Shown: piece by piece, positions 3,910 to 47,037 of the stretch
Layout of the letters: each line of letters starts with the position of its first letter
Numbering within the stretch: position 1 is the first letter of the stretch
Virus record (IMG/VR): IMGVR_UViG_3300032163_000009
Coordinates: 1 to 64,000 of that record
Length of the DNA stretch: 64,000 nt
Strand: one strand, 5' to 3'
From: a virus
Position numbers and translations under genes: made by a program
The notes under the pieces: generated by a model
Database searches by the model: none
The model's input: the letters and a program-made list of their open reading frames with translations, nothing else
Told to the model about the DNA's origin: nothing

Positions 3910-3910
3910 C

Positions 3911-4171
3911 ATGGCAGAAAATAAATTGCCTTTGCAGGTGTGGTTTGACGATCACGATTGGGTCGTGGCGGAGACTGCGGCCGATGCTACCGACATCATG
4001 CACGAAGTCTACGGCAATGACAGTTCGGCGCAGCCGGAAGATTTCAGTCAGTTAAGCAGCGACGAATCTATCTCGATCTTCGACGGCGAGACAGAAGAAA
4101 CAGTCAAGCACACGGCCGCTGAATGGATTGCAAGCAATGGGCGAGGCTTACTGGCCTCGGTCGATTTCTAG
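3911..4171 (+). CDS. Small acidic hypothetical protein, 86 aa
   Basis: A short acidic protein with WFDDHDW near the N-terminus and many Asp, Glu and Ser residues. It follows the previous gene after one base and is followed at once by the next. No membrane segment or known motif is seen. Strong acidity in small phage proteins sometimes indicates DNA mimicry or protein binding, but there is no direct support for that here. Confidence 0.65.
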   Translation: MAENKLPLQVWFDDHDWVVAETAADATDIMHEVYGNDSSAQPEDFSQLSSDESISIFDGETEETVKHTAAEWIASNGRGLLASVDF

Positions 4172-4179
4172 GCGCAGAG

Positions 4180-4869: not shown

Positions 4870-5065
4870 CTGGTATGTAGCCCTGTCGGCTTTGTTCGGA
4901 GGCGGAGCAGCGGCTTTCTTTATGCTCGGCGCAATTAGCGCAGCGACTTATCCAGTCGATGCCCTATTCTGCATCTTGGCCGCGCTGGTGCTATTGCTGC
5001 TCGTTGCGATCGGCGGCATTGGGCTGATCTTGATGAGAGTGGCGGGCTTGAACAATGATCGTTAA
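4853..5065 (+). CDS. Small membrane protein, two spans, 70 aa
   Basis: ATG 4853 follows a GGAGG site at about 4842, inside the previous gene. Two hydrophobic helices (residues about 8-30 and 38-62) are separated by a short loop with a Pro and an Asp. The size and topology resemble small phage membrane proteins, such as class II holins or host-membrane effectors. It lies far from the lysis genes at 7.5-13 kb, so a lysis role is not favoured. It overlaps the next gene by 11 bases. Confidence 0.65.
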   Translation: MHRWLDWYVALSALFGGGAAAFFMLGAISAATYPVDALFCILAALVLLLLVAIGGIGLILMRVAGLNNDR

Positions 5066-5345
5066 CCCTAGCCCGCCGTTTGCGGTTGAGCATGTGCTGC
5101 CGATCATGCGCGATGAAAAGACGCAGACGCGGCGCGTAGTTTGGCCTCAATCGAGTTACGCGTCAGCCGATTGGAAACCGAAGCACGGCCCAGTTGGCAC
5201 GCGCTGGTATCTGCGCGAAGCATTGGCGCGACACGACGGCGAGTCCGGTCGATGGATTTTGTACGCGGCCGATCACGCCTTCGCTAAAAACGACGCAGGT
5301 CAAGCGTTGTTAGGCGTTTGGGGGTCAAATGGAAAACACTTGTGA
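5055..5345 (+). CDS. N-terminal part of a phage ASCH-like (PUA-fold) protein
   Basis: The segment LPIMRDEKTQTRRVV and the later WYLREAL are characteristic of the phage ASCH-like family, whose members read roughly KTQTRRV...WVREA...MPRWASR...VRVERLQDIS. Here only the first half is in frame; the chain ends at 5345. The second half of the family signature is found at 5539-5780 in another frame, after the small zinc-ribbon gene. This is therefore probably a gene split by insertion or rearrangement. ASCH domains are thought to bind RNA or modified nucleotides. Expression of this half alone is possible. Confidence 0.6.
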   Translation: MIVNPSPPFAVEHVLPIMRDEKTQTRRVVWPQSSYASADWKPKHGPVGTRWYLREALARHDGESGRWILYAADHAFAKNDAGQALLGVWGSNGKHL

Positions 5346-5514
5346 ATGGGGTTATTTGGAAGATGACGATGTTTGGGAAACATCCTGCGATGAGATGCAC
5401 TATCTCAATAGTGGTGATCCCGAAACAAATCGGTATAAGTTCTGTCCGTATTGTGGGCAACGCCTAACAATGCGTGCAGTGGACGCTGCGCCGATTGAGG
5501 CGGATGAAGAATAA
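5329..5514 (+). CDS. Small phage zinc-ribbon protein, 61 aa
   Basis: The protein has the layout of a common small phage family: DDDVWETSC near the N-terminus, a variable stretch, then KFCPYCGQRL. The cysteines can hold one zinc. It is related to the fragment at 2-97. It begins inside the end of the ASCH-like N-terminal half and separates it from the C-terminal half, so it may have been inserted there. Function is unknown. Confidence 0.7.
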   Translation: MENTCEWGYLEDDDVWETSCDEMHYLNSGDPETNRYKFCPYCGQRLTMRAVDAAPIEADEE

Positions 5515-5586
5515 AGTTATGGCGGCTTGCGCCACTAACGCAAGCCGAAATGGCGTTGGAAGAAAAGTAAACTGGCGTCGCTGTAT

Positions 5587-6021
5587 ATGCCAGCCAACTG
5601 CGCTCGAACGCGCCTGCTCGTCGTCGGGGTTCGAGTCGAACGCTTGCACGACCTCAGCGCAACGGATTGCCGCGCTGAGGGCTATAGCGCTCGAACCGAT
5701 TACTTTTCGGAATGGGACAAGATGAACGCCGATCGCGGCCACGCGGCTGAAACAAATCCAGTGGTATGTGCTTATACGTTTCTGCGAGAGCGGCCAACTT
5801 TTGTTGAGCGCTGGCGGACAGAATCAGAAGCACTAGGCATTCCGCTTTATAATCGCGCGACGATCGCCCAAATGAAAAGCGGCAAGGCGCGAGTGTTTCG
5901 GCCTGGTCATATCAACCCTGATAATTTCTTGCCGGAACCGCAAGAGTTCGACACCTACTATGCGGCCTTCGATTACTTGCAAGCCTATCTGCTGGCCGTT
6001 AAGGAGAAGATGCAGCGATGA
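5587..6021 (+). CDS. C-terminal part of a phage ASCH-like protein
   Basis: This reading frame contains VGVRVERLHDLSATDCRAEGY and NADRGHAAETNPVVCAYTF in the order expected for the second half of the phage ASCH-like family. Family-like coding sequence begins upstream of the first ATG, right after a TAA at 5536: the in-frame codons there give KPKWRWKKSKLASLYMP. No good start or ribosome site precedes either point. The frame continues 70 residues beyond the usual family end, which argues that it is not merely decaying. It is either one part of a broken gene or a product started at ATG 5587. Confidence 0.55.
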   Translation: MPANCARTRLLVVGVRVERLHDLSATDCRAEGYSARTDYFSEWDKMNADRGHAAETNPVVCAYTFLRERPTFVERWRTESEALGIPLYNRATIAQMKSGKARVFRPGHINPDNFLPEPQEFDTYYAAFDYLQAYLLAVKEKMQR

Positions 6022-9879: not shown

Positions 9880-10341
9880 TCAAGTATTCGCGTGACTTAA
9901 TCTTGAAATTTCTTCATCGCGTGCGCGGATGATCTCGCCTAGCCTAACAATTTCAAGTCCCAGTCGCGTCACTTCATTACGACTTTCTTGCAACTTAGTT
10001 GACAGTTCAGAAATGCTTTTGGCGTGTGCACGAATCTCAATGCCCAGCGCCTCGGTGTCGCTGAGGTAGTTTGCCGCCAGCGCCTCATTTTCTTTCTTAT
10101 ACTCTTTCGCGTCAAGCAGAATGGAAGCCCGCAGCGACTCATTGTCCTTGCGGTACTCTTCAATTTGATCGGATAAATGCTCAGCCGTTTCAGTCAGTGT
10201 CTTGATCGCCATAGCATTGTTAAGATTACCTTGAGATCGATCGACGCCCGGTTTATTGCGAGCATTGATCTGCCCCCAAATGGCGGCCAGAGCTGTGATG
10301 AAGCTGCCGATTGCTACCAGTGCAACAAGATCGATGTTCAT
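9880..10341 (-). CDS. Anchored coiled-coil protein, spanin- or Rz-like, 153 aa
   Basis: ATG 10341 is chosen because CAGGAATCA precedes it and it overlaps the stop of the upstream gene (ATGA). The first 20 residues form a membrane anchor (VALVAIGSFITALAAIWG). The remainder is a long heptad-rich coiled coil with many Glu, Arg and Lys. This is the layout of an inner-membrane spanin (Rz) or of the phage gp-type lysis accessory proteins. No outer-membrane spanin partner is evident. Position in the lysis region supports the idea. Confidence 0.65.
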   Translation of the reverse strand: MNIDLVALVAIGSFITALAAIWGQINARNKPGVDRSQGNLNNAMAIKTLTETAEHLSDQIEEYRKDNESLRASILLDAKEYKKENEALAANYLSDTEALGIEIRAHAKSISELSTKLQESRNEVTRLGLEIVRLGEIIRARDEEISRLSHANT

Positions 10342-10739
10342 GATTGATTCCTGAAAATCAAAAGGTATAAATTTGTTAGCGCCATCAGCGAGTAAACCGG
10401 CACGGCGGTTACATTTGCGTTTGCAATGGTAATCGTGACTGCGACGCATATCCAAAAAAACGCAGATAGGGCCAGGCTCACCTTCCTGACTACCTTGAAG
10501 CCGTAAGCAACACTCAAGAATGATAGTAAGCCCGCAAACGCTCCCAGACTGCCCCAGACGATCTCGCTATCGGCGGGTGTTGTCATTAGCTGACGCATAA
10601 TGGCAAATGAACTAGACTCAAAAGTGTTCCACCACGGCGATAGAATCCACATGCTGAATAGCGTCAAGATCAACGCTAGAAATAATTCTAGCGCTGACAC
10701 CTCGGATTGACTAAGGATGTATTTTAAGTTGTGCTTCAT
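10338..10739 (-). CDS. Membrane protein with about four spans, possible holin, 133 aa
   Basis: ATG 10739 overlaps the endolysin stop (ATGA), so it is chosen over the in-frame upstream start at 10865. Hydrophobic segments lie at about residues 17-35, 62-80, 85-103 and 108-127. The gene is coupled to the endolysin upstream and to the coiled-coil gene downstream, the usual place for a holin. There is no family signature, so holin is an inference from topology and context. Confidence 0.65.
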   Translation of the reverse strand: MKHNLKYILSQSEVSALELFLALILTLFSMWILSPWWNTFESSSFAIMRQLMTTPADSEIVWGSLGAFAGLLSFLSVAYGFKVVRKVSLALSAFFWICVAVTITIANANVTAVPVYSLMALTNLYLLIFRNQS

Positions 10740-13330
10740 ACCGCCTCGATGAAACTGCGTATAGCCCGCAAAATCGCGGGCTGATTCTGCAATGCCCAGT
10801 CGTCGTCTTGCCAGCGATAGAATGCCACGCCCGCGATCGGTTGATGCGCTTGATCGATATTCCATTGATGCAGGTATTTGACGCAGTGATCAATCCAAAC
10901 CGCCCCGGTGTCTTTCGACCAGCCTAACTTCGTTGAGTTGTCCAACCGCTGCGGGTTGGCCTCGGTAATATAGACCGGCAGATGCTTGAAGCGCAGCGGC
11001 ACTTCGGCGAGTGCGGTTTCTACCGCGCGGAAGTGCAGGAACTGCCAGCGCAGCGGATCGTCGCTGAACTTGGCATCGGACGTGATCAAAGTCGGGACGT
11101 TGGCTTGCGTCTTGCTGTGCAAGAACAGCGCACCGGCTCCGCTGATGCCGGTCAATATCTTCCGCCACCAGATTCGATTATCGGCTGGACACGCGGCTGG
11201 CAGCCACGCAAACTGCGGCCCGAAATAAGGATCAAGCGGTGCGGGTCCAAAAGCAACCGCGCGGGTCAGGGCTGCCCACACTCGATTGTAGGAAGCAATA
11301 TAACTTTCGGGCGTGATCGGTTGAATGTCCGCGCCTGGCTTGCCTATATCCGAATCGAAGCCCGGCCATTCTTGCGGGTTGTTAATCTCGTTGCCGTAGA
11401 TAAACGCCGCCGCGCCGGACGCGGGGTTGGCGTTGATCGTCTTGACGATCGCTTGTTCGAAGGCCGCTAGCCGATTCGGGGGCGGCAACGTGCCTGTGCC
11501 GTCGGCATAACCGTAGCCGAGTCGAACGACAACCTTGATTCCGGCTTGGGCGAATTTTGAAAAGTCTAGCGCAACCGGTTGATCGCTCACCTGCACCAGC
11601 GCCACGCACAACCCTTTCAAGTTGTTCTGCTGCATCCAGTCGCCACCGGCTGCATCATGCACGCCAATCAACAGCGGCGCAGCGAGGGGCTGAGGCGGTG
11701 TAATCGGCACAGGCTTTTGAATCTCCATGATCGACATGGGATCGATGACATCGGCCACAGAATAACCGCTCAAGCCATGACCGAGGGCTTGGATATTCAA
11801 ATGCAAATGAACCGCAGTGGTGCCAGTCAGTCCGGCTACACCGATATGCTGGCCGCGCTTAACGACTTGCCCGACCCTCACGTTGAAACTATTGAGATGG
11901 CAGTACCATGAGCGCCAAACTCGATCGGCGACCCGATGCTCGATGATCACATGCTGACCATAGTTTAGCGCTGGCGGTGACGCAAATCTGTCTGTCGCCA
12001 AAACGACCGTGCCATCGGCCACAGCGTAAACCGGCACGCTGGCGTGTTTCACATCGTCAAAGGCATCGAAGTCCGTGCCTTCGTGTAAGTGATTGGCATA
12101 CGCGGCCGGTGCGTTGAAAGGATTGGTCACGCGCAGCGGGATCGTCTCGATCGGCGACGAGATCACAAACGGAACAGGGGCGGGCGGCGGCTGAACCGTT
12201 GAGCCAAATTCTCTGAACTCGATATTGCGCACGCCGCGCGCCCGCAGCCAAGTCTCGATGTTGTCCGTCCAGCCTGATCGCTTGTAGACCACGACCAAAC
12301 TGTCGCTGCCTACTTTGGCCGAAGTGTTAATCACCACGGCATCATCAGCGCTTTGAGAGGCGGTGCCTTTGACTTTATCGCGCAGCGCGTCAAACTCTTT
12401 GACTTCGGCCTCGGTCAATTTCTGCGGAGCGAGATAGAAGATGGAGCGATACAAAGTGGAGGCCGGACTTGGAATCGGCGCAGGCACAGGCACGGTCACG
12501 GGTTGCTTGATGATTGCGGCGGCATACGCTGGCAGAATGGCTTTCAAGTTGGATTCCGAGCCGCCTAACTGAAAGCCGCACGCGCCGATCACATCAGCGT
12601 CGAGAATCAACTGGCTGTCGTATTTAACCATGCTGTCGATCCACTGCGAGCCGTTAGACGTGCCACCTGTGCCGAAACCATTGCCCGATGAAGCCTCGCT
12701 AATGATGATCGGTAACTGTGCATCGATCGGCAGCGCAGCCTTGATTTGTCGATAGCGCAGCGCGTTGTCAAAGTCGAGGCGCGGATCAGCATCTTCCCAA
12801 TAGGCATGCAGCGACAAAATCGCCCCCAACTCTTTGGCGCGACGCAGCGAAGGCAGCAAGTAGGGCAGGACGGATATTTCCGGCGCGCCGGTCGTGAATG
12901 ATCCGTAAGCCAGTTTGAAACCGTTTTGATAGGCGATTTCAAGCGCGGTCAGCATCCACACGTTAAACCATTCGGCTTTGGCCGGAACATCCGGCACAGG
13001 TTCATTCAACGGATCAAACCAATCAGCCGGATTCAAGCGCCAGTTTTGCATGAGCGTTCGCTTGTGCGAGTCGCGTGTCTTGGTCATCCACTCAAGGCAA
13101 TTGGCAACGGGATCGCCTTCGAGAAAACCGGGCGGTGTCCGATTGAACTCATCGGTTTGATAACGATATACCCATTTAGTCGTTGGGCTGAATTGGGCAA
13201 TGTCGCCGCTGATGTCTTCATCGACGGAGTAGATGATGCCGATCGGCCTTCCGCCGTTGGCACACGCTGCCAGCCAGTCTCCGAACCCGTCGCGCTTGCC
13301 GCTTGAAATATGGACGCTGAGTTTGCTCAT
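10736..13330 (-). CDS. Three-domain endolysin: glycosidase-like, M23 peptidase, glycosidase-like
   Basis: Residues 1-270 look like a clan-A TIM-barrel glycosidase: LNEP gives the acid/base Glu near 109, and IISEASSG a second Glu near 212. A Pro-rich linker and a small domain (295-375) follow. Residues about 400-535 are an M23 metallopeptidase with HEGTD (416-420), YCHL (478) and HLHL (508-510) as zinc and catalytic residues. Residues 555-864 are a second glycosidase-like barrel with YGNEIN (Glu 648) and YITEANP (Glu 790). The protein would cut both glycan and peptide in the cell wall. It has no signal peptide. The ribosome site is CCGGAGCACC. Confidence 0.85.
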   Translation of the reverse strand: MSKLSVHISSGKRDGFGDWLAACANGGRPIGIIYSVDEDISGDIAQFSPTTKWVYRYQTDEFNRTPPGFLEGDPVANCLEWMTKTRDSHKRTLMQNWRLNPADWFDPLNEPVPDVPAKAEWFNVWMLTALEIAYQNGFKLAYGSFTTGAPEISVLPYLLPSLRRAKELGAILSLHAYWEDADPRLDFDNALRYRQIKAALPIDAQLPIIISEASSGNGFGTGGTSNGSQWIDSMVKYDSQLILDADVIGACGFQLGGSESNLKAILPAYAAAIIKQPVTVPVPAPIPSPASTLYRSIFYLAPQKLTEAEVKEFDALRDKVKGTASQSADDAVVINTSAKVGSDSLVVVYKRSGWTDNIETWLRARGVRNIEFREFGSTVQPPPAPVPFVISSPIETIPLRVTNPFNAPAAYANHLHEGTDFDAFDDVKHASVPVYAVADGTVVLATDRFASPPALNYGQHVIIEHRVADRVWRSWYCHLNSFNVRVGQVVKRGQHIGVAGLTGTTAVHLHLNIQALGHGLSGYSVADVIDPMSIMEIQKPVPITPPQPLAAPLLIGVHDAAGGDWMQQNNLKGLCVALVQVSDQPVALDFSKFAQAGIKVVVRLGYGYADGTGTLPPPNRLAAFEQAIVKTINANPASGAAAFIYGNEINNPQEWPGFDSDIGKPGADIQPITPESYIASYNRVWAALTRAVAFGPAPLDPYFGPQFAWLPAACPADNRIWWRKILTGISGAGALFLHSKTQANVPTLITSDAKFSDDPLRWQFLHFRAVETALAEVPLRFKHLPVYITEANPQRLDNSTKLGWSKDTGAVWIDHCVKYLHQWNIDQAHQPIAGVAFYRWQDDDWALQNQPAILRAIRSFIEAV

Positions 13331-36755: not shown

Positions 36756-38204
36756 TTAATTCTTTGCCCGTGCCCACACCCATGTGCGAAAGGCATCCGC
36801 CGCATGGTTGTTTTCGTCCAATGGTTCTTCTTCGTCGCGACGGCTGCCTTCCGGCGCATACCGATAGCCAGCCGTGACTTCCTCGATGATATTCTTGCAG
36901 CGACGATGAACTGCCACGGCCCGATAGCCTTGACCATCGCAAAATAATTGGCGCACGATCGGGATGCCGTCGATAATCTTATGCACACCGACCCGCGCCG
37001 GGATGTTGGCATTCCGAAAGCGCCGGTGCAGCGCAGGCGCTTCATGCGACACGATCGCAATTTCCGGCAACTGCGTGGAGCGACTCCAACCGGCTTGCAA
37101 GCGCTGCTCGGCTTCCTCTGGGCTCGGGGCAGGCACGACCTCATACTTATCATTCAGCCACTGCCAGCCGTAATGCTTGCCGAACAACTCGATCGCTTCT
37201 CGAATGCAGACTTCTTCAAGGTGCTTGCGGTGATACAGTTCATCGAAAATTAAAATGCGCGTCGGCTGACGCTGAATGAGCAAGATAGCCCGTGGATCAA
37301 TAAAGCCGTCGTCGCACGCCAATTCAAACGGCAGCGTCAGATCAGGTTCGTCGTCGGTCAAGTTACCGATCGGCCAATCCTCGGCGCTGAAATTATCGTA
37401 GACCATACCCTCGAAAGCGGCTGACTCGCCTAAGAACAAACGCGCCCGCAAATTGCCAACCAACGAACTGAGTGTGTCGTAAACTTGTAGCCCTTCGACT
37501 GTCCACTGCCCGTTCTGCCACCAGCGCGGATTGTCGATCAACTGCGCTCGATGAATGACGAGTTTGCCCTCCTGCTGGCGCTTCCACGTCCAGTGCGACG
37601 GCGGCGGCGGATTCATGTCGCCAATGATTTGCGAGTAGCCTAACTTGAAGCGTGTCAGCCGCGTGGTAAGTTTTTGCCATTCATCCAGCGACAACTCCGG
37701 CGCTTCGTTGACGTAGATCAAGTCCCATTCCGTGGACATGATCTTCTCAGTTTGATCCTTGCCGCTCTGCCGAAAGCCACCTACCACAATTTGGCTGCCG
37801 TTCTCGTATAAATAAACATCGCGGTTCTTGCGCTGCGGTGCGCCTTGCAAGACAAAATGATCGGCGGGAATGACATCGAGTTCGAACGTCGCCAGCGCAG
37901 ACTCCGACAATGATTCACGCGTCTTGCGCAGAATGAGAAAGCGGCAACCGGGGATCGTCTCGGCTAAGTGATGCAGCTTATACAGAATGCCGAACGTCTT
38001 AGCCGCGCGGGCTGGCCCGCTCAAGATCACTTCGCGGCGCTGCTCCGTTTGAACGGTCAGCGCTGCGCCGCGCAACTCCGGCACAACCTCAGCCGTCAAC
38101 GAGGTTGCTGTCAGTTGTGTCGCTTGCTCGAAGTGCCGATTGACGCGGCTGATCAAGTAATCGATTCCAGTCGGCTTGGATGGCGGCAAGAGTGGGTTTA
38201 TCAC
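36756..38204 (-). CDS. terL: Terminase large subunit, 482 aa
   Basis: Walker A is SGPARAAKT (residues 62-70) and Walker B LIYVNEAPE (162-170), with Glu 167 as the catalytic acid. The C-terminal half holds the RNase H-like nuclease signature: FELACDDGFIDPRAI, then IFDELYH and NNHAADAFRTW near the end. The enzyme cuts and pumps DNA into the prohead. The most likely start is GTG 38204, giving an unusual 116-base overlap with the small subunit gene; a later TTG cannot be excluded. Confidence 0.9.
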   Translation of the reverse strand: MINPLLPPSKPTGIDYLISRVNRHFEQATQLTATSLTAEVVPELRGAALTVQTEQRREVILSGPARAAKTFGILYKLHHLAETIPGCRFLILRKTRESLSESALATFELDVIPADHFVLQGAPQRKNRDVYLYENGSQIVVGGFRQSGKDQTEKIMSTEWDLIYVNEAPELSLDEWQKLTTRLTRFKLGYSQIIGDMNPPPPSHWTWKRQQEGKLVIHRAQLIDNPRWWQNGQWTVEGLQVYDTLSSLVGNLRARLFLGESAAFEGMVYDNFSAEDWPIGNLTDDEPDLTLPFELACDDGFIDPRAILLIQRQPTRILIFDELYHRKHLEEVCIREAIELFGKHYGWQWLNDKYEVVPAPSPEEAEQRLQAGWSRSTQLPEIAIVSHEAPALHRRFRNANIPARVGVHKIIDGIPIVRQLFCDGQGYRAVAVHRRCKNIIEEVTAGYRYAPEGSRRDEEEPLDENNHAADAFRTWVWARAKN

Positions 38205-38922
38205 TTATATGCTCGAACACGGCGCGGGTGAGGGCGTCGTATAGAATGGCAACTTGCGTGAGACTGACATACGTTTGAGCGTCCAACTCACGCTTGGACT
38301 CCGTTTGAACCAACTTGCGTTTCAATTCGATCAAACGATTCAACTCATCAAACAGCGCCCCTTCACGATTGCCTTGCTCTAACACACTTTGCAGCGCGAC
38401 TACGGCTTGGCCTTGCGCTTGAGCGATGGCGAAACTTTCTGTTTTGAATTCAGCACTGTCGGGATCGGGATTGATCGGCTTGCGCTGCAAAGTGAGCAGC
38501 AGCTCGCGCAAATTTCCTCGGGCTTGCTGCCAGGCCGTCATGCCTGCGCCGGTGGTGCTTAGGCGCTGCATCACACCGATAATTTGAGCGTCGAGCAAAG
38601 CGATGTCGGGGCGCAGGCCGATCAAAGACGGATCACTCAGCGCGTCGTCAAAGGGAATCTTCCACCGCGCAGGCAGGTGCGGCAGATAGCGGCTGCTCCC
38701 TTTGCCTTCGTATTGCGGGCTGGCAATGCCGCTCGGTGTCTTGCCGCCGTGTCGATCGCAGCGGTGATTCAGCATCGGCGTCTTGAGACACGGCCCCGCT
38801 GCGCCGGACGACTTCTTGGCTCCGCAGACCCGCTTGCCTTTTTTTGTGCCTTCAACGCCCAGGCAATAACCGTCGGCATCCAGCGGCAGGTTAAACAGAT
38901 TCCCGAAGGGCTGATTAGGCAT
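38089..38922 (-). CDS. terS: Terminase small subunit-like protein, 277 aa
   Basis: The N-terminal part has HRCDRHGGKTPSGIASPQYEG, followed by SRYLP. This Cys/His-rich opening resembles a group of phage small terminase proteins with a zinc-like head. The remaining 190 residues are helical with a repeat-like core (LLTLQRKPINP, LEQGNREGALFDELNRLIELK). It lies directly upstream of the large subunit. It probably recognises phage DNA, which in this phage may be chemically modified. Confidence 0.7.
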   Translation of the reverse strand: MPNQPFGNLFNLPLDADGYCLGVEGTKKGKRVCGAKKSSGAAGPCLKTPMLNHRCDRHGGKTPSGIASPQYEGKGSSRYLPHLPARWKIPFDDALSDPSLIGLRPDIALLDAQIIGVMQRLSTTGAGMTAWQQARGNLRELLLTLQRKPINPDPDSAEFKTESFAIAQAQGQAVVALQSVLEQGNREGALFDELNRLIELKRKLVQTESKRELDAQTYVSLTQVAILYDALTRAVFEHISDKPTLAAIQADWNRLLDQPRQSALRASDTTDSNLVDG

Positions 38923-39388
38923 CGATGACCTTGCGGCGACGCGCGACGCGGCGCTGGCGGCCTTGCCTGCGGCCTGTCTCGTAAATGGTAATGCCGTGCA
39001 AGGCTTTCATGAGCTTCGCCTTGAGGATATACAGGCGTGTTCGAACGCCCTTGAAATCTTCTACAACCTTTTGACCGTTCTCGATATAAACGAAATCGGC
39101 CATGTAGGTTGCGATGTGGAGGCCGTTCACGTCCAGCGAATACTCGACTTGCAATTCCAGATCGGTAATCTCACCGGCGCGCTCCCGTATCTTCAACTGG
39201 CTGTACCGAGTCGCTTCGCCTTGACTGGCAAACCGGATGCCATCTACCCAGGTAACCTTAGCCTTGAACTTGTTTTGTTTTTTCGGGGCGTGCTGGATCA
39301 GCGCTTGGTATTCTTCGGACGTGTATTCTTCGATCGGTTGATCGGCAACACGCGGCAAGAGCAGCGCTGTCGAAATAGAGCGCTTCAT
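38915..39388 (-). CDS. DUF1064 PDDEXK-type nuclease, 157 aa
   Basis: ATG 39388 overlaps the stop of the upstream gene (ATGA) and is chosen over 39481. The core KFKAKVTWVDGIRFASQGE, then LQVEYSL and YMADFVYIENGQKVVEDFKG, contains the ED...D..Y...GQ.V.EDFK arrangement of the DUF1064 family, a phage restriction-endonuclease-fold group thought to resolve branched DNA before packaging. The C-terminus is strongly basic (RRQGRQRRVARRRK). Next to terminase, a role in DNA maturation is plausible. Confidence 0.8.
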   Translation of the reverse strand: MKRSISTALLLPRVADQPIEEYTSEEYQALIQHAPKKQNKFKAKVTWVDGIRFASQGEATRYSQLKIRERAGEITDLELQVEYSLDVNGLHIATYMADFVYIENGQKVVEDFKGVRTRLYILKAKLMKALHGITIYETGRRQGRQRRVARRRKVIDA

Positions 39389-39921
39389 AGTTGGACCAGC
39401 CAGACGCGGCCAGCGACGAGAAAGGTCGGTTCGCGTTCCGGCCAGTATTCTGAAAAGGCGCGGACCACGCCTTCCTCCCAATAATCATCACCGCAGACAA
39501 GGCCTCCCGGCTTCACCTTTGGCACCCACAATTTCAAATCTTGGATCACCGCTTCGTAGAAATGGCTGCCGTCGATAAACAGCAGGTCTAACGATCTGTC
39601 GCGGAACAACGGCGCGGCGTCAGCACTACTTTTGAAAATAGGCACGATGCGGTGTAGCACACCGGCGCTCTGCACATTAGACAGGAACGATTGATAGAGC
39701 TTTAAGGGTTCATCCACAAGGCCTGTGCCGCTGTCGCTGCCTTGCCAGTGATCGATACAATACACCACGCCTGCGCTGTGCTGCGCCAGCGCAATAGCCG
39801 AATGGCCCAGCCACGAGCCAACTTCGGCAATAGCCGATTTGCCTTGCGCGACGTTAGCCAAAGCCTCAAGCATTTCTTTCGGATGCCAGTTGTCTGGCAC
39901 GGCAATTGTATTGGAGTTCAT
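39385..39921 (-). CDS. SAM-dependent methyltransferase (Methyltransf_24 type), 178 aa
   Basis: IAEVGSWLGHSAIALAQ is motif I, VVYCIDHWQGSDSGTG the second strand with its acidic end, and LDLLFIDGSHFYEAVIQDL and LVCGDDYWEEGVVRAF complete the fold seen in the Methyltransf_24 and sugar-O-methyltransferase groups. It lies between folE and the DUF1064 gene with four-base overlaps on each side. It may methylate a sugar or amine on the modified base. No DNA methyltransferase target domain is present. Confidence 0.75.
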   Translation of the reverse strand: MNSNTIAVPDNWHPKEMLEALANVAQGKSAIAEVGSWLGHSAIALAQHSAGVVYCIDHWQGSDSGTGLVDEPLKLYQSFLSNVQSAGVLHRIVPIFKSSADAAPLFRDRSLDLLFIDGSHFYEAVIQDLKLWVPKVKPGGLVCGDDYWEEGVVRAFSEYWPEREPTFLVAGRVWLVQL

Positions 39922-40796
39922 AACGACACCACCTTTAAGAATTCTGCACGAGTCGAAAGGTCTGTTCTAAACGCGCCACGCATGACAGATGTTTTCATGG
40001 TCAGCGGCGTCTTGATGCCGCGCATGGCTGCGCAGGTATGCACACCCTTGGCAAACACGGCGACATCAGGTGTGCCGGTGACTGCGCTGATGTCAGTCGC
40101 AATGTCAGCGACCAGCCGTTCTTGAATCTGCAACTTGTGCGCGTGCTTGTGGGCAATGCGGGCGAACTTCGACAAGCCTAAAACTTTTGAGCCGGTGAGC
40201 ACGCCGATCGACAAATCACACCAGAACGGCAAGAGGTGATGTTCGCACAAACTCCATACCCGAATGTCTTGCACGACAACCATTTGATCGGCTTCAACTA
40301 CTTCAAACGTGGAGTCTGCATTCGTTTCTTTATAGCGCATGAACTCCAGCCACGCGGCGGCGGCGCGACGCGGTGTCTCGATCAAGCCTTCGCGCTGCGG
40401 GTCTTCGCCAATCGTTTTCAGCAAGTCTCGATACAGGCGCTCCACCTTCGTGATAAATTTGGCATCAGTGAGCAGCGGCGCAGGCGGAGAGAGCAAGACG
40501 ATCGTCTCCGTGTGGCGAGTGGAATATAACTGATAACGCTGCTCGATCTTTTCCGCTGTTTCCATTTGCTGCGCGAACACATATAGCCCCAAGCCTGGCA
40601 GTTCGCCATCGATGACCGTGACTTTAACCGGCTGGCCTTCAAAGACAGCATCATCGGATAGTCCAAGCCGTTGCCCGGCGTTGACATCGCGGACAAAGGC
40701 GGCGGATTGATCGCCGCGCAGTTCGACGCCGTACGGATAGGTCTTCATCACTTGCAAACCGGCAAAGTGCATGTGTTGTGGATCAGTGAGTATCAT
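39918..40796 (-). CDS. folE: GTP cyclohydrolase I with N-terminal extension, 292 aa
   Basis: ATG 40796 is the start by ribosome-site position; the in-frame ATG at 40868 lies inside the previous gene. Residues 110-292 are FolE: TPRRAAAAW, VWSLCEHHLLPFWCD with zinc ligands Cys and His, GLSKFARIAHKHAHKLQIQE, and VHTCAAMRGIK with the second Cys. It opens GTP to make dihydroneopterin triphosphate, the first step toward 7-deazaguanine. The N-terminal 100 residues are an extra beta-rich domain of unknown use. It is the last of the three recognised base-synthesis genes in the operon. Confidence 0.85.
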   Translation of the reverse strand: MILTDPQHMHFAGLQVMKTYPYGVELRGDQSAAFVRDVNAGQRLGLSDDAVFEGQPVKVTVIDGELPGLGLYVFAQQMETAEKIEQRYQLYSTRHTETIVLLSPPAPLLTDAKFITKVERLYRDLLKTIGEDPQREGLIETPRRAAAAWLEFMRYKETNADSTFEVVEADQMVVVQDIRVWSLCEHHLLPFWCDLSIGVLTGSKVLGLSKFARIAHKHAHKLQIQERLVADIATDISAVTGTPDVAVFAKGVHTCAAMRGIKTPLTMKTSVMRGAFRTDLSTRAEFLKVVSL

Positions 40797-40815
40797 TTTA
40801 CTTTTACCTTCGCCT

Positions 40816-41664
40816 TTACCTTCTGATTGGGATTTTTCTCGGCGCGGAACTCGACGCGAGGTAATCACCGGCCATGTATTCTAAAGCGCGGCCGCGTGCA
40901 TTCTTGCCGCCGACCTCAGCCGCGATAGCGTCGATCGCTTGATTGATCACGCCTTGCTGACTGGCATGCACTAGAAAGGACAGATAGCCCCAATCTTTTT
41001 GAGGCGGCGACACCTGCTTGGACACCAGCAGCATGATCGCCTGCTCATCTTCCGTGACACCGTGTTCCGCCTTGAGGCCGTCCAGCGCTGCTCTAAATTT
41101 TTGGGCTTCGCTGCGCGGCAGGGTGAACAGGAAATTGACGTGCGCAATCAGCGCACCTTTTGAATCAGCCGCCGCGCGGGCTTCACCTTCTCCGCCTGCG
41201 TTAGCGCCGTCCAATATCTTTTGCCAATCGACACCCGCTGTAAAGTTTGCGATATAGGCGGGGCTGAGTCCGGCATACTTGATCAGCACAGACGGATCGG
41301 GCAGCGAGCTAACCAGTGCGGCCATTTTGGTTACGTCATTGCCACCGCGCAGCGCATTCAAAGCAATGGTCAACGTCTTCGCTTCGTCGTCCGTGCCTTC
41401 CCATTCGATGACAGGAAACAATGGCTCAGTGGTTAGCAACAATTCTCGATAGCGTTGTTCACCGTCCACGATTCGCCAAAAGTCGTCACCGGCCTTGCGT
41501 CGCCCTGGAAACACATGCTGACATAGGATGCCACCGAACATGCCGTATTGATCCAAGGTGTTGCCCAACGACGCGTGAGTATCGGCATCCATTTCATTCG
41601 GATTCCACGGATTCGGTTTGATCTTGTCGCGCGGCACCATGATCACTTGATTGTAGAATTTCAT
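40816..41664 (-). CDS. ParB-like nuclease-fold protein beside the DNA transglycosylase
   Basis: ATG 41664 overlaps the dpdA-like stop and is preferred over 41691. Residues 10-90 show the ParB N-terminal pattern: VPRDKIKPNPWNPNEMD, then TLDQYGMFGGIL and RIVDGEQRYREL. The C-terminal 180 residues are helical. In bacterial dpd islands, DpdB is a protein of the ParB-like superfamily that acts with DpdA in putting the base into DNA, so this gene may be its phage counterpart. The window holds a second, clearer ParB at its right edge. Confidence 0.7.
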   Translation of the reverse strand: MKFYNQVIMVPRDKIKPNPWNPNEMDADTHASLGNTLDQYGMFGGILCQHVFPGRRKAGDDFWRIVDGEQRYRELLLTTEPLFPVIEWEGTDDEAKTLTIALNALRGGNDVTKMAALVSSLPDPSVLIKYAGLSPAYIANFTAGVDWQKILDGANAGGEGEARAAADSKGALIAHVNFLFTLPRSEAQKFRAALDGLKAEHGVTEDEQAIMLLVSKQVSPPQKDWGYLSFLVHASQQGVINQAIDAIAAEVGGKNARGRALEYMAGDYLASSSAPRKIPIRR

Positions 41665-42617
41665 TGCCACACCACTCCCCGCGTGCGCCACAGGTCAGTC
41701 ATGTTGCGCTCTACCTGCCATAGCACTTTCAGGTTAGCCAAAAAGACTTTGCCTGTGACCGCTCGCTTCGAACCTGAATCAGATTGCGCATTGTCAAAGT
41801 CAAACCATTCACGGGATAGTCCTTGATGCAGCAGCTTGTCGATGTCCAGCGGGTCTTTGGCTTGATGCTGGCCGATGCGGGTAAAAGACATCTTGCCTTC
41901 GGCGGGCGAAAATAAAGACAAGCCCCACAGCGCGGCGGACTTCCACGAAATCGAATCGACGCTATACACGGGCAGCGCTTGCATGAGTGCGATCGAGGTC
42001 GCCTTGAATAAGTGCGTCTTGATCTGACGCTGGTAGGCATCGACCGCCACGCCTCTGATCAACGCTTGAGCAGCGGGCGTGCCGCTGCGCATGATCTCCG
42101 CACCGGCTGCGAGGCCGATATACTTCAAGCCTTTGCGCTTGATGAGACTTTGATAGCCAGCCCAGCCGTCTAACGGCGACCACACATATAAAATTTCAAT
42201 GCCAGTTTCTTGGGCGACGGCTTGCCACACTTCATCGCGCCATCGATCGATCACGTCGATCCCAAACTCCATTTGCAAATCCAACTCCACCATGTAGTTA
42301 GGCTTCAGCGGACAGGTCAAGACTGTTTCCACATATCGATCGCGGAAGCGGCGGGCTTCGTCAATCTTGATTCGTTCGCCGCGTCGAAAGCGCTGATGAA
42401 AAGAATGCGCGCCGGAGTCGAGGAGCACATCACACGGATCAAGCGCAGCGTGCATGGCTTCCAAACAGTTGCGCAGCGAGTTGGCGCCGCTGCTCTTGGT
42501 CTTATTGTGCTGAACGATCGAGGTGAGTAAATGGATCTTCGGCGGTCGCGCAGGTAAAGCCGTCTCGACCCACTTCACTTTCTGTTTGCTGTCTACACCG
42601 GCGAGTAAGACATTCAT
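41661..42617 (-). CDS. dpdA: DpdA-like DNA-guanine transglycosylase, 318 aa
   Basis: This TGT-related barrel has LLDSGAHSF (Asp 67), NYMVELDLQ (Glu 111/Asp 113) and YSVDSISW (Asp 221), matching the three active-site positions of phage DpdA proteins. LYVWSPLDGW and YIGLAAGAEI form strands of the barrel. It would exchange guanine in DNA for a 7-deazaguanine derivative. It overlaps the glycosyltransferase and ParB-like genes by four bases on each side. It is shorter than bacterial DpdA and lacks the C-terminal zinc domain of tRNA TGT. Confidence 0.8.
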   Translation of the reverse strand: MNVLLAGVDSKQKVKWVETALPARPPKIHLLTSIVQHNKTKSSGANSLRNCLEAMHAALDPCDVLLDSGAHSFHQRFRRGERIKIDEARRFRDRYVETVLTCPLKPNYMVELDLQMEFGIDVIDRWRDEVWQAVAQETGIEILYVWSPLDGWAGYQSLIKRKGLKYIGLAAGAEIMRSGTPAAQALIRGVAVDAYQRQIKTHLFKATSIALMQALPVYSVDSISWKSAALWGLSLFSPAEGKMSFTRIGQHQAKDPLDIDKLLHQGLSREWFDFDNAQSDSGSKRAVTGKVFLANLKVLWQVERNMTDLWRTRGVVWQ

Positions 42618-43624
42618 GTCCGCAGCCTCGTGACAATACCTTGCGCGTTGTCTGACCAGCGCGAAGTATAGGCTAAAGCGAGAGGTTCGAAGTCGCGGTG
42701 ATGCAGACGCTCGACTAATTGATCGAAGGTGGAGTAGAGGGCTTCACTTGAAACCATTTCGGGATAGCAAGCCCGATCAGGCACGAGGACTTCACAGCCG
42801 TACAAGATGGCTTCTTGCAGCGCGTAGCCGAATGTCTCTTGCTGCGCCGTGCTCAGAAACCAACGGGCGTGTTTGACGAGGCTGAGATATTCCGTTTTGG
42901 TTAAGCCTGCTTCATACGACACATTGAGCGGCAGGTTCGGCAGCGCTCGACCGTTGCCGCAAGAAGTGATCAAGAAATGCAAGTCGGGCACGGCCGCCGC
43001 AGCGGCGAGGAATTCGGCCAAGCCTTTTTCAGTTGCGGGGCGGTGCGGCCAAATGCAGTAATTCTGTTTAGCGTGCGGTGTTTGCCAACTGACTAATTGA
43101 TTGTACCAATTGATATTCCAGATCAAGCCGGTGACGCGCACCTTGCTGTCCGGCAGATCAAAATACTTTCGCACGCGCTGCGCATGGAACTCGCTGCCCA
43201 CATAAATTTCAGAGGCCAGTTGATGCCAGCTCCGTTCAGCGTTATCGCTCCAGCGGCGCAACTGCTGGACGAAATCTGTTTCATCGGCGCGTCCGGCATA
43301 GTTGAAGCCAACGATTCGGATAGTCAGTTGCTGCAATTCAGCGAGGTAGCCGATGGCTTCCAAGCCCGGAAAGAATAAGTCGCCAACGAGAAAGACGTCG
43401 CCGGAGTGAATGAATTTCTGCGCAAAGAGTTGCGTGACCATTTTGAGTTGTTCGGCCTTGAACGCAATGGTGTTGTTCACGTCCAGAAATTCACCTGACT
43501 GGATTAAGACGCGCTCAAAGCCGTCGGGGTAAAGCGTGACATCTATCAGCGGGCGCAGCGTCTCATTCATCATGACGGTGTAGCGATTGACGATGTTCTC
43601 GATCGGCAAATAATACAAAGTCAT
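42614..43624 (-). CDS. GT-B glycosyltransferase, 336 aa
   Basis: The last 160 residues carry the GT4-type nucleotide-sugar domain: CIWPHRPATEKGL, LHFLITSCGNG, and QETFGYALQEAILYGCEVLVP with the conserved E.FG...EA..... segment. The N-terminal half is the acceptor domain. It is translationally coupled to both the DpdA-like gene and the radical SAM gene, so the acceptor is most likely the deazaguanine base or its side chain. A free metabolite or a protein is an alternative. Confidence 0.75.
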   Translation of the reverse strand: MTLYYLPIENIVNRYTVMMNETLRPLIDVTLYPDGFERVLIQSGEFLDVNNTIAFKAEQLKMVTQLFAQKFIHSGDVFLVGDLFFPGLEAIGYLAELQQLTIRIVGFNYAGRADETDFVQQLRRWSDNAERSWHQLASEIYVGSEFHAQRVRKYFDLPDSKVRVTGLIWNINWYNQLVSWQTPHAKQNYCIWPHRPATEKGLAEFLAAAAAVPDLHFLITSCGNGRALPNLPLNVSYEAGLTKTEYLSLVKHARWFLSTAQQETFGYALQEAILYGCEVLVPDRACYPEMVSSEALYSTFDQLVERLHHRDFEPLALAYTSRWSDNAQGIVTRLRT

Positions 43625-44634
43625 TTCTCGACCTCATTGCCCTTGAACATATTGACTTGAATGTGGCCTTGACTGCGGGCGTTGAACAAACGCCCTTCGG
43701 GGCAGTGCTGACACATCTCAGGCTTGTCCGTCGATTTCATGCGGCGGCGAAACTCGGCATACTTCGGCCCGTTCCAAATCTCCAACGGCGATTGCTCAAA
43801 GATGTTGCCCATCACATTCAAGCCAGCCCAATCCCGATCGCACGGCACGACATTGCCATTTACATGGATCGTCATGCCGTAAAACGCCTCGCGGCAAACG
43901 TCGTCCGGTTGCAGCCCGCCTTTGTCGGCGATCTCGCCTCGGAAAGAATCGAGGAACTTGTAACGCACTTCGTCAGCGTGCAAGCCGCCTGTCCAGTCAA
44001 TGAACTGCGCCTCGGTGTATTCCGGCACGCCATTCAGCATGATCGTTTGAGCCACGGCATACGGGCGCTGCTCGCGCGACAGGATATTGATCACGCGCTC
44101 CCGCAGCAAGTCCAGTCGACCGTTCACCCGCATACTCGCATACCGATCGGGATCGAGGCTATCCACATCCATCACAAGGAAATTCAAGCCAGCGGCAAAG
44201 GCGCGATCGAGTTTGTCGGGGGTAGCGGGCAGCAAGTTGGAAGCAATGACGGTATAGATATTGCGCTGCGTGCAAGCGGCAATGTAGTCGGCAATATCGT
44301 TCTGCATGAACGGCTCGCCAAAATGAAACAGTTCGAGCGACTTCACCCACGGCATTTGATCGAGGATCGATTCGAATTGACCAAGCGGCATCACTGCATT
44401 CAAGTCGCGTTGGCCGTGAACTTTGAGATCGGTGGTGCGCGGACAAAACGGACAGGCGAGATTGCAGCGCGAAGTCGTTTCAACTTGATACAAGCGCGGC
44501 AACGTCACCGGCTCGATCGTGAACCGATCCTGCTCTACTTCGGAGAGCAGCGCCGGAAAATCCATTTGCTCAAAAGTAAAATCGGGCAGGTTACTCAGCA
44601 CACCTTTCAAGCGTGGGTCGTGTTGATCGATCAT
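43621..44634 (-). CDS. Radical SAM/SPASM enzyme, 337 aa
   Basis: RCNLACPFCPRTTDL holds the Cx3Cx2C cluster motif. Barrel motifs LELFHFGEPFM and VIASNLLPAT follow. The C-terminal part has DDVCREAFYG, GNVVPCDRDW and EMCQHCPEG, which are SPASM-type cysteines for one or two further clusters. SPASM enzymes usually modify peptides or small molecules. In this operon it may modify the inserted base or its precursor. It overlaps the glycosyltransferase by four bases. Confidence 0.85.
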   Translation of the reverse strand: MIDQHDPRLKGVLSNLPDFTFEQMDFPALLSEVEQDRFTIEPVTLPRLYQVETTSRCNLACPFCPRTTDLKVHGQRDLNAVMPLGQFESILDQMPWVKSLELFHFGEPFMQNDIADYIAACTQRNIYTVIASNLLPATPDKLDRAFAAGLNFLVMDVDSLDPDRYASMRVNGRLDLLRERVINILSREQRPYAVAQTIMLNGVPEYTEAQFIDWTGGLHADEVRYKFLDSFRGEIADKGGLQPDDVCREAFYGMTIHVNGNVVPCDRDWAGLNVMGNIFEQSPLEIWNGPKYAEFRRRMKSTDKPEMCQHCPEGRLFNARSQGHIQVNMFKGNEVEK

Positions 44635-44981
44635 GCCGCTGCCTCCGTCTCAACCGTTGCGCCGTTCTCGCCGTCCTCACTGACTTCCACTTTGAACCAA
44701 CGCCCGGCATAATTCAATTCACACCATTTGAGCAGCGCGGTCGCCATGACTTCGCAACTCTCGTCGCCGATGAGCGTGGATTGGTAAGTGGCAAACCATT
44801 CGATGGCGTGACTTTGCAGCGCGTGGTATTCGACATCGCGCTCAGTGTGCGTTTGCTCGAAGTCAAGGCGCACTTTGAAAACGTGCCGATGCGGACTCCG
44901 CAGATAAGCGGTATCCAGCGGCGCGTCCGGCCAGCGATGGAAGCCGATTTGAGAAAAGGTTACGAAGCCGGTGAGTTTCAT
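44631..44981 (-). CDS. Short QueD-like T-fold protein, 116 aa
   Basis: The features GFHRWPDAP, RSPHRHVFKVRL, ERDVEYHALQ and DESCEVMATALLKW match a short phage family related to 6-pyruvoyl-tetrahydropterin synthases. The two histidines in HRH sit where the zinc ligands should be, but the catalytic Cys of QueD is not in its usual place. It may be a second pterin-type enzyme or a binding subunit. It overlaps the radical SAM gene by four bases and follows queE by 40 bases. Confidence 0.65.
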   Translation of the reverse strand: MKLTGFVTFSQIGFHRWPDAPLDTAYLRSPHRHVFKVRLDFEQTHTERDVEYHALQSHAIEWFATYQSTLIGDESCEVMATALLKWCELNYAGRWFKVEVSEDGENGATVETEAAA

Positions 44982-45021
44982 AGACTGCTCCTGGTAAGGT
45001 TAATCAACGACAAGGGTTGAA

Positions 45022-45732
45022 TCACACGCCGCGTCGATTGCCGAACAGTTCAATGTGAAAGCGCGGCGTCAAATGATAACCACGCTGCAAGATAGCCGGC
45101 AATAGTTCTTGAGCGCGTCGTTGCAAGACTTGTTGATCGATGCCTTCCAACATGATGTAGACGTGGGGCAGTGGGATGGCGTGCGCCTTGACCAGCTCAT
45201 CGACTTCAAGCAAGTCTTGTTCGTTCATCACGACAAACTTAAACCACGCGATCGGTGAACGCGCAAACCAATCAAGCGTTTCAGGATGGTAGCGCTTCTT
45301 GAGTGCATTGCCGCTATTGATCAATTTTGGGCTGACGTTGTATTGATCGGCAAAGTAAGGCGTCGGGGGTGTGACGGTGCCAGCCGTTTCGATCTGGACA
45401 CGCCACTTCAGCACGCGCAGGCGGTCGATCAATTCTCCGAGGCTGCGCCATTGCAGCATCGGCTCGCCGCCCGTCACAACGAGGGACTTGATTAACGGAT
45501 TGTGTTGCCCTCTCTCTAATATCCTCTCAAGACAGTGTTCAACCGACATAGACTTGATCTCGACGTTGGGATCAAACTTTTCCCAATTCCAAGTATACGG
45601 GGTGTCGCAAAAAACGCATTTCAAATTGCAGCCCGCCAATCGAAGGAAGTATACCGGCTCTCCGATCGACACCCCTTCGCCTTGAATCGTTTCGCCGAAC
45701 ACCTCGGAAATCGCCAGCCGCTCATTCGACAT
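45022..45732 (-). CDS. queE: 7-carboxy-7-deazaguanine synthase, 236 aa
   Basis: The start (SEVFGETIQGEG) and the cluster motif in LAGCNLKCVFCDTPYTW (Cys 35, 39, 42) are diagnostic of QueE. VVTGGEPML, VQIETAGT and NVSPKL follow as the SAM and substrate sites. The enzyme converts carboxy-tetrahydropterin to 7-carboxy-7-deazaguanine. The QueD gene overlaps its start by 11 bases. Confidence 0.92.
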   Translation of the reverse strand: MSNERLAISEVFGETIQGEGVSIGEPVYFLRLAGCNLKCVFCDTPYTWNWEKFDPNVEIKSMSVEHCLERILERGQHNPLIKSLVVTGGEPMLQWRSLGELIDRLRVLKWRVQIETAGTVTPPTPYFADQYNVSPKLINSGNALKKRYHPETLDWFARSPIAWFKFVVMNEQDLLEVDELVKAHAIPLPHVYIMLEGIDQQVLQRRAQELLPAILQRGYHLTPRFHIELFGNRRGV

Positions 45733-46204
45733 ACTGCACCTCGCACACGGCGGAAGTCTTCGGCGTCTCTTTCACTTCAACGCTGGACACCCACACCCCT
45801 TGCCCATCTAGCAAGCGGCTGGCAACTTGCTGAAAAAAGATCGCCAGACATTCAGCAGTAGTGTCGCCTACGTTCAGCAAGGCAACATCTTCAAGCGGCA
45901 AGCTATAAGACTTTTGATTGTGTTCAAACAAAACGAAGCGATCTTCAAACTCTTCCACCAAAGCTGCTGGTAGCAGCGTCCGGTGATCGAGGTGATCGTC
46001 CAGCCAATTTTTGAACACGCCGAGATCGGTGTAGTCTTTGATCCAATTCTGGTTAGTCAATGGGCCGGAGAGCGTGAGGCTGACCAACCAGTTGTGGCCG
46101 TGCAAGCGGCCGCACTTGTGATCAGGTGGAACGGTGAATAAAATATGCGCAGCGGAGAACTCAAATACTTTGGTGATCGTTAGTTTAGTTGAAAGCGCCG
46201 GCAT
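45722..46204 (-). CDS. queD: 6-carboxy-tetrahydropterin synthase, 160 aa
   Basis: FEFSAAH (His 20), CGRLHGHNW (Cys 31, His 35, His 37) and VKETPKTSAVC near the end show zinc ligands, the catalytic Cys and the Glu of QueD. It turns dihydroneopterin triphosphate into 6-carboxy-tetrahydropterin. It is the first gene of the leftward late block, with its own promoter and an AAGGAG ribosome site. Confidence 0.9.
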   Translation of the reverse strand: MPALSTKLTITKVFEFSAAHILFTVPPDHKCGRLHGHNWLVSLTLSGPLTNQNWIKDYTDLGVFKNWLDDHLDHRTLLPAALVEEFEDRFVLFEHNQKSYSLPLEDVALLNVGDTTAECLAIFFQQVASRLLDGQGVWVSSVEVKETPKTSAVCEVQYVE

Positions 46205-46222: not shown

Positions 46223-46252
46223 CATTATGCCACGAATGGGCAAGCGCTGTCA
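46223..46252 (-). promoter_or_regulatory. Leftward promoter for the deazaguanine/late operon
   Basis: On the - strand, TTGACA (46252-46247) and CATAAT (46228-46223) are separated by 18 bases, and TGG directly precedes the -10 (extended -10). Transcription would start near 46216, just before the AAGGAG of queD. A terminator lies immediately upstream (46261-46300), so this promoter can separate late genes from the block to its right. Confidence 0.7.
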
Positions 46253-46260
46253 ATTAGCTA

Positions 46261-46300: not shown

Positions 46301-46534
46301 TTCGTGTCATCCGTAAGATGGACGTCGCTATTATAAAATTATGCCGATCGTGCGGCCTCGTCGGCGCGAAGCCGCACACTACAAAACAGCAACTCGATCG
46401 GAGGGATCGAAGAACACGCTGGCATCATACCACACTTTGTCAATGGCCGTCGAAGGGCAGCTCAGTCAAGACATTTAAGAGATCAGTCAACAGGCAGTCC
46501 TGTCTAAGCATTTGCACCGGCAGTGTTAGGTGGG

Positions 46535-47037
46535 CTATATCTGCTCAAAGACAAACTGAGCAGGCAAGATATTACGGCACAAATAAATACTTTGAAAGGT
46601 ACAGCGTTGGAGAACCTGGCTTTTCTCTCATAATCAATGCGCTTGTCGAATACCATAATTTCAAACTTATTGGTGGACAGCAATTGAAAGCGAATTTTGC
46701 TATCAAATAAACCAGAGTCATTCAGTAGCATGGCAAACGGTTTTTGGAGTGCATACAATCTTTGAAGTATAGGCTCTCTTAGGCTATATGGCGGATTTGA
46801 AATAATCACGTCATATCTTTTTGGCTCATACCGAAAGAAATCTTGACCTGTTTCAATGTGCGAATTGGTTACGGTGAAACCGTGTGACCTGAACACACTG
46901 ACAAATTTACTATACTCTTTATCGAAGGGACACCAGACGATTGAACCGGTTTTTACATATTTCACAAGCGGCTCAATTGCATAAGCCTTTGTGTAGCTTT
47001 CATCGTGCCTGTTGAACTTGTATTGACGTGTGGACAT
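46535..47037 (-). pseudogene. Phage adenine methyltransferase with frameshifted 3' end
   Basis: From ATG 47037, the first 138 residues are intact: AIEPLVKYV, WCPFDKEYSKFVSVF, SHIETGQDFF, IISNPPYS (catalytic motif) and KPFAMLLNDSGL. After FDKRIDYERK the frame runs on to 46504 with unrelated sequence. The expected family ending is still present in other frames: GSPT in the +1 frame, then CRNILPAQFVFEQI ending at TAG 46535-46537 in the third frame. Two indels are therefore needed. The gene is AT-rich compared with its neighbours and looks acquired and decaying, although the catalytic part could still be made. Confidence 0.65.

Follow-up and report, generated by a model that had tools for sequence, protein, structure and literature searches.

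Which base does a phage place in its DNA when its 7-deazaguanine genes are joined to genes for a glycosyltransferase (GT) and a radical S-adenosylmethionine (SAM) enzyme? The question is raised by ten minus-strand genes (46204 to 38915) in the 64,000 nucleotides analysed here, hereafter the window, which are positions 1 to 64,000 of the 77,735-base IMG/VR virus record IMGVR_UViG_3300032163_000009. The genes, as identified by listing of open reading frames (ORFs) and by profile searches, lie directly upstream of the terminase genes in the order queD, queE, a short T-fold (QueD-fold) gene, a radical SAM/SPASM gene, a GT gene of GT-B fold, dpdA, a ParB-like gene, folE, a methyltransferase gene and a DUF1064 gene. 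Our analysis of sequences and structure models makes it probable that a 7-deazaguanine made on a branch without QueC is inserted by DpdA and occurs glycosylated in the phage DNA.

A sequence-only reading of the window had described a ten-gene operon at this place and on this strand, joined mostly by 4-base overlaps. ORFs and profile matches bear this out: most junctions are such overlaps once three start codons are corrected (to 41664 for the ParB-like gene, 40796 for folE and 39388 for the DUF1064 gene). Judged by comparison of loci, the arrangement is far above chance, because the same gene set recurs in many unrelated viral contigs; eight of the genes (queD, queE, folE, T-fold, radical SAM, GT, dpdA and ParB-like) form a module that is conserved in unrelated viruses.

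The glycosyltransferase and its linkage to DpdA

The GT (42614..43624, minus strand, 336 amino acids) carries the EX7E motif (E263, E271) of GT4-type retaining glycosyltransferases and the residues R195/K200. It is only weakly named in Pfam, below the cut-off, and a single-sequence search yielded no match in the PDB; it was placed among GT4-type GT-B enzymes by a 37-sequence profile and an AlphaFold model (predicted local distance difference test, pLDDT, 93.4). Structure prediction, which had been proposed as a check on this protein, thus gives a GT4-type GT-B fold with small-molecule GT4 enzymes closest. The closest solved folds are those of sucrose-phosphate synthase and, with Z 22-25, of BshA, MshA, SenB and biopterin glucosyltransferase; among models of viral proteins, the homologue in phage ACP17 is one of the two that come nearest.

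With the GT as its only seed, a search returned 80 loci. Linkage was counted with iterated hidden Markov model searches of six-frame ORFs (E 1e-4), and the counts include several DpdA groups; the related contigs among the loci are not fully independent. We found DpdA in all 44 loci that extend 4 kb or more to each side of the GT; the same 44 hold the T-fold gene in 41 cases, FolE in 39, QueE in 38, QueD in 34, and the ParB-like and radical SAM genes in 16 each. The five GT loci that lack DpdA are all truncated at a contig end. The DpdA partners of the GT belong to several divergent groups and come from several types of phage, and the pair of GT and T-fold genes is also present in cultured phages (Acidovorax ACP17, Sinorhizobium Phosso, Xanthomonas X1 and the PA5oct group of Pseudomonas).

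The pairing persists where the base is apparently not made by the phage. In a 70.9-kb record (L017), the GT, DpdA and a Vut_1 transporter (PF02592, E 7.6e-43; 10951-11667) stand in a row, and searches of that record for the T-fold protein, QueD, QueC and FolE found none of them. Five further records (L184, L186, L200, L201 and L209) resemble it in joining GT-DpdA to Vut_1, three of them with a T-fold gene (L184, L200 and L201). Transporters of this queuosine-precursor type were seen beside or near DpdA in L017, L184/L204, L186, L200, L201, L209, L215 and L220; in the records with Vut_1 and DpdA, FolE was not found, nor was QueD where it was searched for. The Vut_1 family includes the YhhQ transporters of queuosine precursors. 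Since the GT-DpdA pair is kept when a transporter replaces the synthesis genes, the GT appears to follow DpdA however the base is obtained, and we regard this as the strongest argument against an unrelated role for the GT.

These data bear on whether the phage simply makes an ordinary, known 7-deazaguanine or 7-carboxy-7-deazaguanine without sugar, the GT and the radical SAM enzyme being mere neighbours that serve, for example, host envelope modification. Unrelated glycosyltransferases are frequent in phages, and six records (L037, L038, L047, L057, L063 and L067) combine the T-fold gene with DpdA and FolE/QueD/QueE and have no GT anywhere in the record, so the core works without it. However, the invariable presence of DpdA in intact GT loci, and of the T-fold gene in most of them, across DpdA groups and phage types, as well as the 4-base overlaps and the transporter-type records, make an unsugared base unlikely. 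Because DpdA accompanies the GT in all 44 intact loci and in the transporter-type records, the GT is, on the evidence of gene linkage, tied to base insertion and not to envelope sugars.

The GT might instead glycosylate a pterin or a free base as a soluble metabolite that is no component of DNA. Biopterin glucosyltransferases are among its sequence and structure matches (9v0l, 5zer and 5zes), the cyanobacterial enzyme of this name glycosylates a pterin, and FolE and QueD of the same operon make pterins. Against this, three of the transporter-type records (L017, L186 and L209) keep the GT with DpdA and Vut_1, and neither FolE nor QueD was found in them. DpdA, not pterin synthesis, is thus the common factor, and we consider a soluble product improbable.

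Two or three glycosyltransferases surround the T-fold gene and DpdA in a number of contigs (L013, L125, L128-L130, L132, L133, L136, L138, L140, L141, L145 and L149), and the base may there bear an oligosaccharide. The L013 cluster also has a DNA polymerase-like gene (10008-12578) in its midst.

A QueC-free branch marked by a short T-fold protein

FolE, QueD and QueE together yield 7-carboxy-7-deazaguanine, from which QueC leads to preQ0. All three enzymes for the precursor were identified in the operon by profile matches. The queD gene (45722..46204, minus strand, 160 amino acids; PF01242 E 9.6e-24, phrog_2389) encodes a 6-carboxytetrahydropterin synthase whose alignment retains the columns of the catalytic QueD residues (Cys and Asp-His), and queE (45022..45732, minus strand, 236 amino acids) matches 7-carboxy-7-deazaguanine synthase profiles (phrog_2076 E 2.2e-52, TIGR03365 E 6.9e-29). 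The folE gene (39918..40796, minus strand) encodes GTP cyclohydrolase I (PF01227 E 1.1e-50, over residues 143-314 of the listed ORF) and probably starts at the ATG at 40796 instead of the listed ORF start at 40868. Ahead of the cyclohydrolase domain, which begins near residue 143 of the listed ORF, FolE is extended by about 110 N-terminal amino acids (window 40430-40796, minus strand).

QueC (PF06508) was not found anywhere in the 77,735-base record. We examined whether this holds in related records and found QueC in none of 55 records with the T-fold gene or the GT (0/48 and 0/7), versus 11 of 14 records that came from the DpdA search and have neither (P = 2e-10 by Fisher's exact test, with related records and fragments among those counted). 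As T-fold/GT records are without QueC, the T-fold protein is, by this comparison of gene content, the mark of a QueC-free branch. Four records (L216, L217, L218 and L222) have QueC matches that span only profile positions 85-208, which suggests truncated or fused forms.

The T-fold protein itself (44631..44981, minus strand, 116 amino acids; phrog_17812 E 2.3e-17) had been recognized in the sequence-only reading, and its identity is borne out by a comparison of its profile with that of phage QueD (hhalign E 1.9e-9) and by an AlphaFold model (pLDDT 93) for which E. coli QueD ranks first among the structures matched (Z 13.1 over 111 residues, root mean square deviation 2.4). It retains the QueD-type His triad (H15/H31/H33) and, as E77, the Glu that should anchor the purine ring of the base. 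No columns for the Cys and Asp-His that are catalytic in QueD were found in the T-fold alignment; the separate queD gene has these residues. The protein is a candidate for a DpdL-like enzyme that acts on the free deazaguanine, and phrog_17812 may be DpdL itself; the fold and the context of QueC-free DpdA clusters fit, but the T-fold gene is also found with Vut_1 in records that have no FolE/QueD. A 2023 study by Cui reportedly describes DpdL as a predicted 7-carboxy-7-deazaguanine decarboxylase, and is said to report dDG and dCDG in phages. The six GT-less records show that the T-fold protein is independent of the GT; one more (L078) has DpdA, the T-fold gene and QueE without a GT.

DpdA and its ParB-like neighbour

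Members of the DpdA family swap guanine in DNA for a deazaguanine. DpdA of the window (41661..42617, minus strand, 318 amino acids) was assigned to this DNA-guanine transglycosylase family by phrog_887 (E 7.5e-12), which is also matched by nine of nine DpdA homologues, and the homologue alignment has the invariant motifs D67-SGA and S-x-D221-S with two invariant Asp. A search with the single sequence gave no match in 50,697 phage records, viral contigs or the PDB, and alignments were needed for the searches. In two contigs DpdA-like genes stand in tandem, two in a row in L057 (7249-8999) and three in L212 (8989-11572).

The ParB-like gene (40816..41664, minus strand; phrog_2159 E 2e-11, phrog_723 and phrog_620) probably starts at the ATG at 41664, in a 4-base overlap with dpdA, instead of at the listed ORF start (41691). 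ParB-like ORFs adjoin dpdA in five other contigs (L008, L009, L010, L011 and L015). In bacterial Dpd systems, of which ParB-like partners are typical, the ParB-like ATPase DpdB assists DpdA (PMC12839542), and from its sequence and position the protein encoded here is a probable DpdB-like partner of DpdA. This pairing, the absence of QueC and the T-fold protein as the hallmark of the QueC-free branch go beyond what the sequence-only reading had proposed.

The transglycosylase could also act on tRNA, and the product would then be a sugared deazaguanine of tRNA, comparable to mannosyl- or galactosyl-queuosine. The PHROG family is named queuine tRNA-ribosyltransferase, and sugars on queuosine in tRNA are known (PMC12518689). 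However, the only sequence match of the DpdA family profile in the PDB is a DNA-guanine transglycosylase (7ui4, E 0.004) and no tRNA enzyme, ParB-like genes of the kind typical of Dpd systems adjoin dpdA, and no tRNA genes were found within the window. We therefore hold action on tRNA to be very improbable, and we retain DNA as the probable target.

The radical SAM enzyme

The radical SAM enzyme (43621..44634, minus strand, 337 amino acids) has a SPASM/twitch domain (PF13186 E 9.4e-17, PF04055). Its CX3CX2C motif (C57, C61 and C64) and four further Cys (C247, C265, C308 and C311) are invariant in six homologues (60-65% identity to the window protein) and follow the pattern of BtrN, which is also the best PDB sequence match (E 8e-12). 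On this evidence it would be a BtrN-type SPASM/twitch enzyme. BtrN, which oxidises an aminocyclitol in a two-electron reaction, uses four Cys as ligands of its auxiliary cluster (PMC9012708).

No match was found by a single-sequence search of the 50,697 phage records. Relatives (61-67% identity) were found in five viral contigs (L008-L012), in all of which the T-fold, radical SAM and GT genes form an unbroken row next to folE, queD, queE and a DpdA-like gene; in most relatives the radical SAM gene touches the GT, T-fold or DpdA gene, and shorter forms hold the same position in L039 and L059. A genome scan returned a sole close relative outside viral contigs, on a 5-kb contig (L099) of a Bacteroidales metagenome-assembled genome. 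There the T-fold, radical SAM and GT genes follow in the same order (3151-5224) and the radical SAM enzyme is 66% identical; the contig is possibly of phage origin and binned with its host. The other matches of the scan are remote cellular enzymes (20-34% identity), bar one match of 25 residues.

NCBIfam peptide maturases are among the weak matches of the enzyme. A role as a peptide maturase is disfavoured: the T-fold, radical SAM and GT genes overlap by 4 bases and leave no room for a precursor gene between them.

Methyltransferase, flanking genes and timing

The sequence-only reading took the locus for a 7-deazaguanine DNA-modification operon in which GT, radical SAM enzyme and methyltransferase decorate the inserted base. 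The linkage of the GT to DpdA and the contiguity of the T-fold, radical SAM and GT genes agree with such an operon, the GT and the radical SAM enzyme probably acting on the DpdA-inserted base or its precursor. Two parts of that interpretation were not supported, the methyltransferase as a standard third decorating enzyme and the late action of the system.

The methyltransferase (39385..39921, minus strand, 178 amino acids) is a SAM-dependent enzyme of the Methyltransf_24/TylF type (PF13578 E 1.2e-22; 24.5 bits against PF05711, with a cut-off of 23). Its top PDB match is 6g7d, which we take to be a mycobacterial methylmannose 1-O-methyltransferase, and the sequence makes a sugar O-methyltransferase possible. 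The DUF1064 gene (38915..39388, minus strand; E 5e-17) belongs to phrog_190, annotated as Holliday junction resolvase, and probably starts at the ATG at 39388; it is likely to be a packaging or recombination neighbour and not a modification gene. Homologues of neither gene were found in the related loci searched, and both were rejected as members of the module. In one related contig (L011) the stretch immediately before queD (4552-5753) encodes a GT2 glycosyltransferase together with an unrelated methyltransferase, a separate case in which extra sugar and methyl enzymes accompany the module.

Late action had been deduced from the packaging genes next to the operon. These are, on the minus strand, a large terminase subunit (36756-38204, Terminase_3) and, by position only, a candidate small subunit (38089-38922), which together cover 36756..38922 and are treated here as context. 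Yet the same genes stand among replication genes in ACP17, X1, L013 and L017; because the terminase neighbourhood is not general in relatives, it says little on timing. The best promoter-like match of the region also counts against late action. It lies directly upstream of queD (46224..46253, minus strand; TTGACA-N18-CATAAT with TG before the -10 element) and agrees with 11 of 12 consensus positions, as a consensus match only, with nine such sites found versus 6.6 expected. Ahead of queD, an ORF (46504-47037, minus strand) weakly resembles adenine-specific methylases, its match to EcoRI_methylase (PF13651) having an E value of 1.7e-4, below cut-off.

A possible route to a sugared base

The route that we propose would begin with FolE, QueD and QueE making 7-carboxy-7-deazaguanine. 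Without QueC the pathway would stop short of preQ0, and the T-fold protein would act on the free base, most simply by decarboxylation to 7-deazaguanine as proposed for DpdL. DpdA, aided by the ParB-like protein, would then exchange some of the guanines in DNA for the deazaguanine, as expected from its family. The near-perfect linkage to DpdA suggests that the GT adds a sugar to the base, either in DNA or just before insertion; the sugar could be attached to the C7 carboxylate (as an ester), to a group made by the T-fold or radical SAM enzyme, or to C7 itself (as a C-glycoside). The radical SAM enzyme, with its BtrN-type four-Cys auxiliary cluster, would probably catalyse a two-electron oxidation or an epimerisation of the sugar or base, and the methyltransferase might conceivably O-methylate the sugar, in this phage only. 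Simpler phage deazaguanines are established to shield DNA from restriction, and a bulky base would shield it from restriction and similar defences.

Several points weigh against this route. If the product of the T-fold protein is unsubstituted 7-deazaguanine, it offers no obvious oxygen or nitrogen handle at C7 for a sugar. The acceptor is not given by gene linkage and could be the base, either free or within DNA, or with lower probability a pterin intermediate; the structural matches to GT4 enzymes are generic. Three records (L184, L200 and L201) combine the T-fold gene with a Vut_1 transporter and have no FolE/QueD, and they match a pure 7-carboxy-7-deazaguanine decarboxylase role poorly. 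Finally, the identity of DpdA in the window rests on remote profiles, with about 20% identity within the family.

Relation to known systems

Known phage deazaguanines carry small groups at C7. Phage modification by FolE/QueD/QueE/QueC and DpdA (Hutinet 2019, PMC6884629) has in common with the present system DpdA and the precursor enzymes up to 7-carboxy-7-deazaguanine; here, however, QueC is lacking and a QueD-fold protein, a GT4-type GT, a BtrN-type radical SAM enzyme and a methyltransferase are added. Its gene content thus places the system with the phage modifications of DNA by 7-deazaguanine, among which it would be a variant that lacks QueC and has sugar-type enzymes. The DpdL branch reportedly also comprises QueC-free phages with FolE/QueD/QueE and DpdA, and the GT and radical SAM partners appear to exceed it. 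Bacterial Dpd systems also pair DpdA with a ParB-like protein (DpdB), whereas in this phage-borne system DpdC was not found beside DpdA and sugar and radical SAM enzymes are present instead. The likeness to BtrN, a radical SAM/twitch dehydrogenase of butirosin synthesis, lies in the cysteine pattern, the similarity being remote.

Two other systems place sugars on nucleic acids. Mannosyl- and galactosyl-queuosine of animal tRNA share with the proposed base a sugar on a 7-deazaguanine derivative, but there the nucleic acid is RNA and the acceptor is the cyclopentenediol of queuosine, for which no route of synthesis is apparent in this phage. T-even phages likewise encode a glycosyltransferase for their own DNA bases, although their glucosylated base is 5-hydroxymethylcytosine, incorporated by polymerase, and not one swapped in by a transglycosylase. 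None of the literature searched was found to report a 7-deazaguanine that bears a sugar in DNA; key papers fell outside this search, and it is not proof of novelty.

We give somewhat better than even chances to a wider proposal, that 7-deazaguanines with one or more sugars, made on the QueC-free branch or salvaged through a transporter, are a widespread new class of phage DNA bases, some of them reshaped by radical SAM enzymes and methyltransferases, and correspond in DNA to the glycosylated queuosine of tRNA. The reaction of the radical SAM enzyme may itself be new for a DNA base or its sugar. If true, a sugar-bearing deazaguanine would be a new class of DNA base that links the strategies of queuosine and of T-even glucosylation, and would expose new targets of defence and counter-defence.

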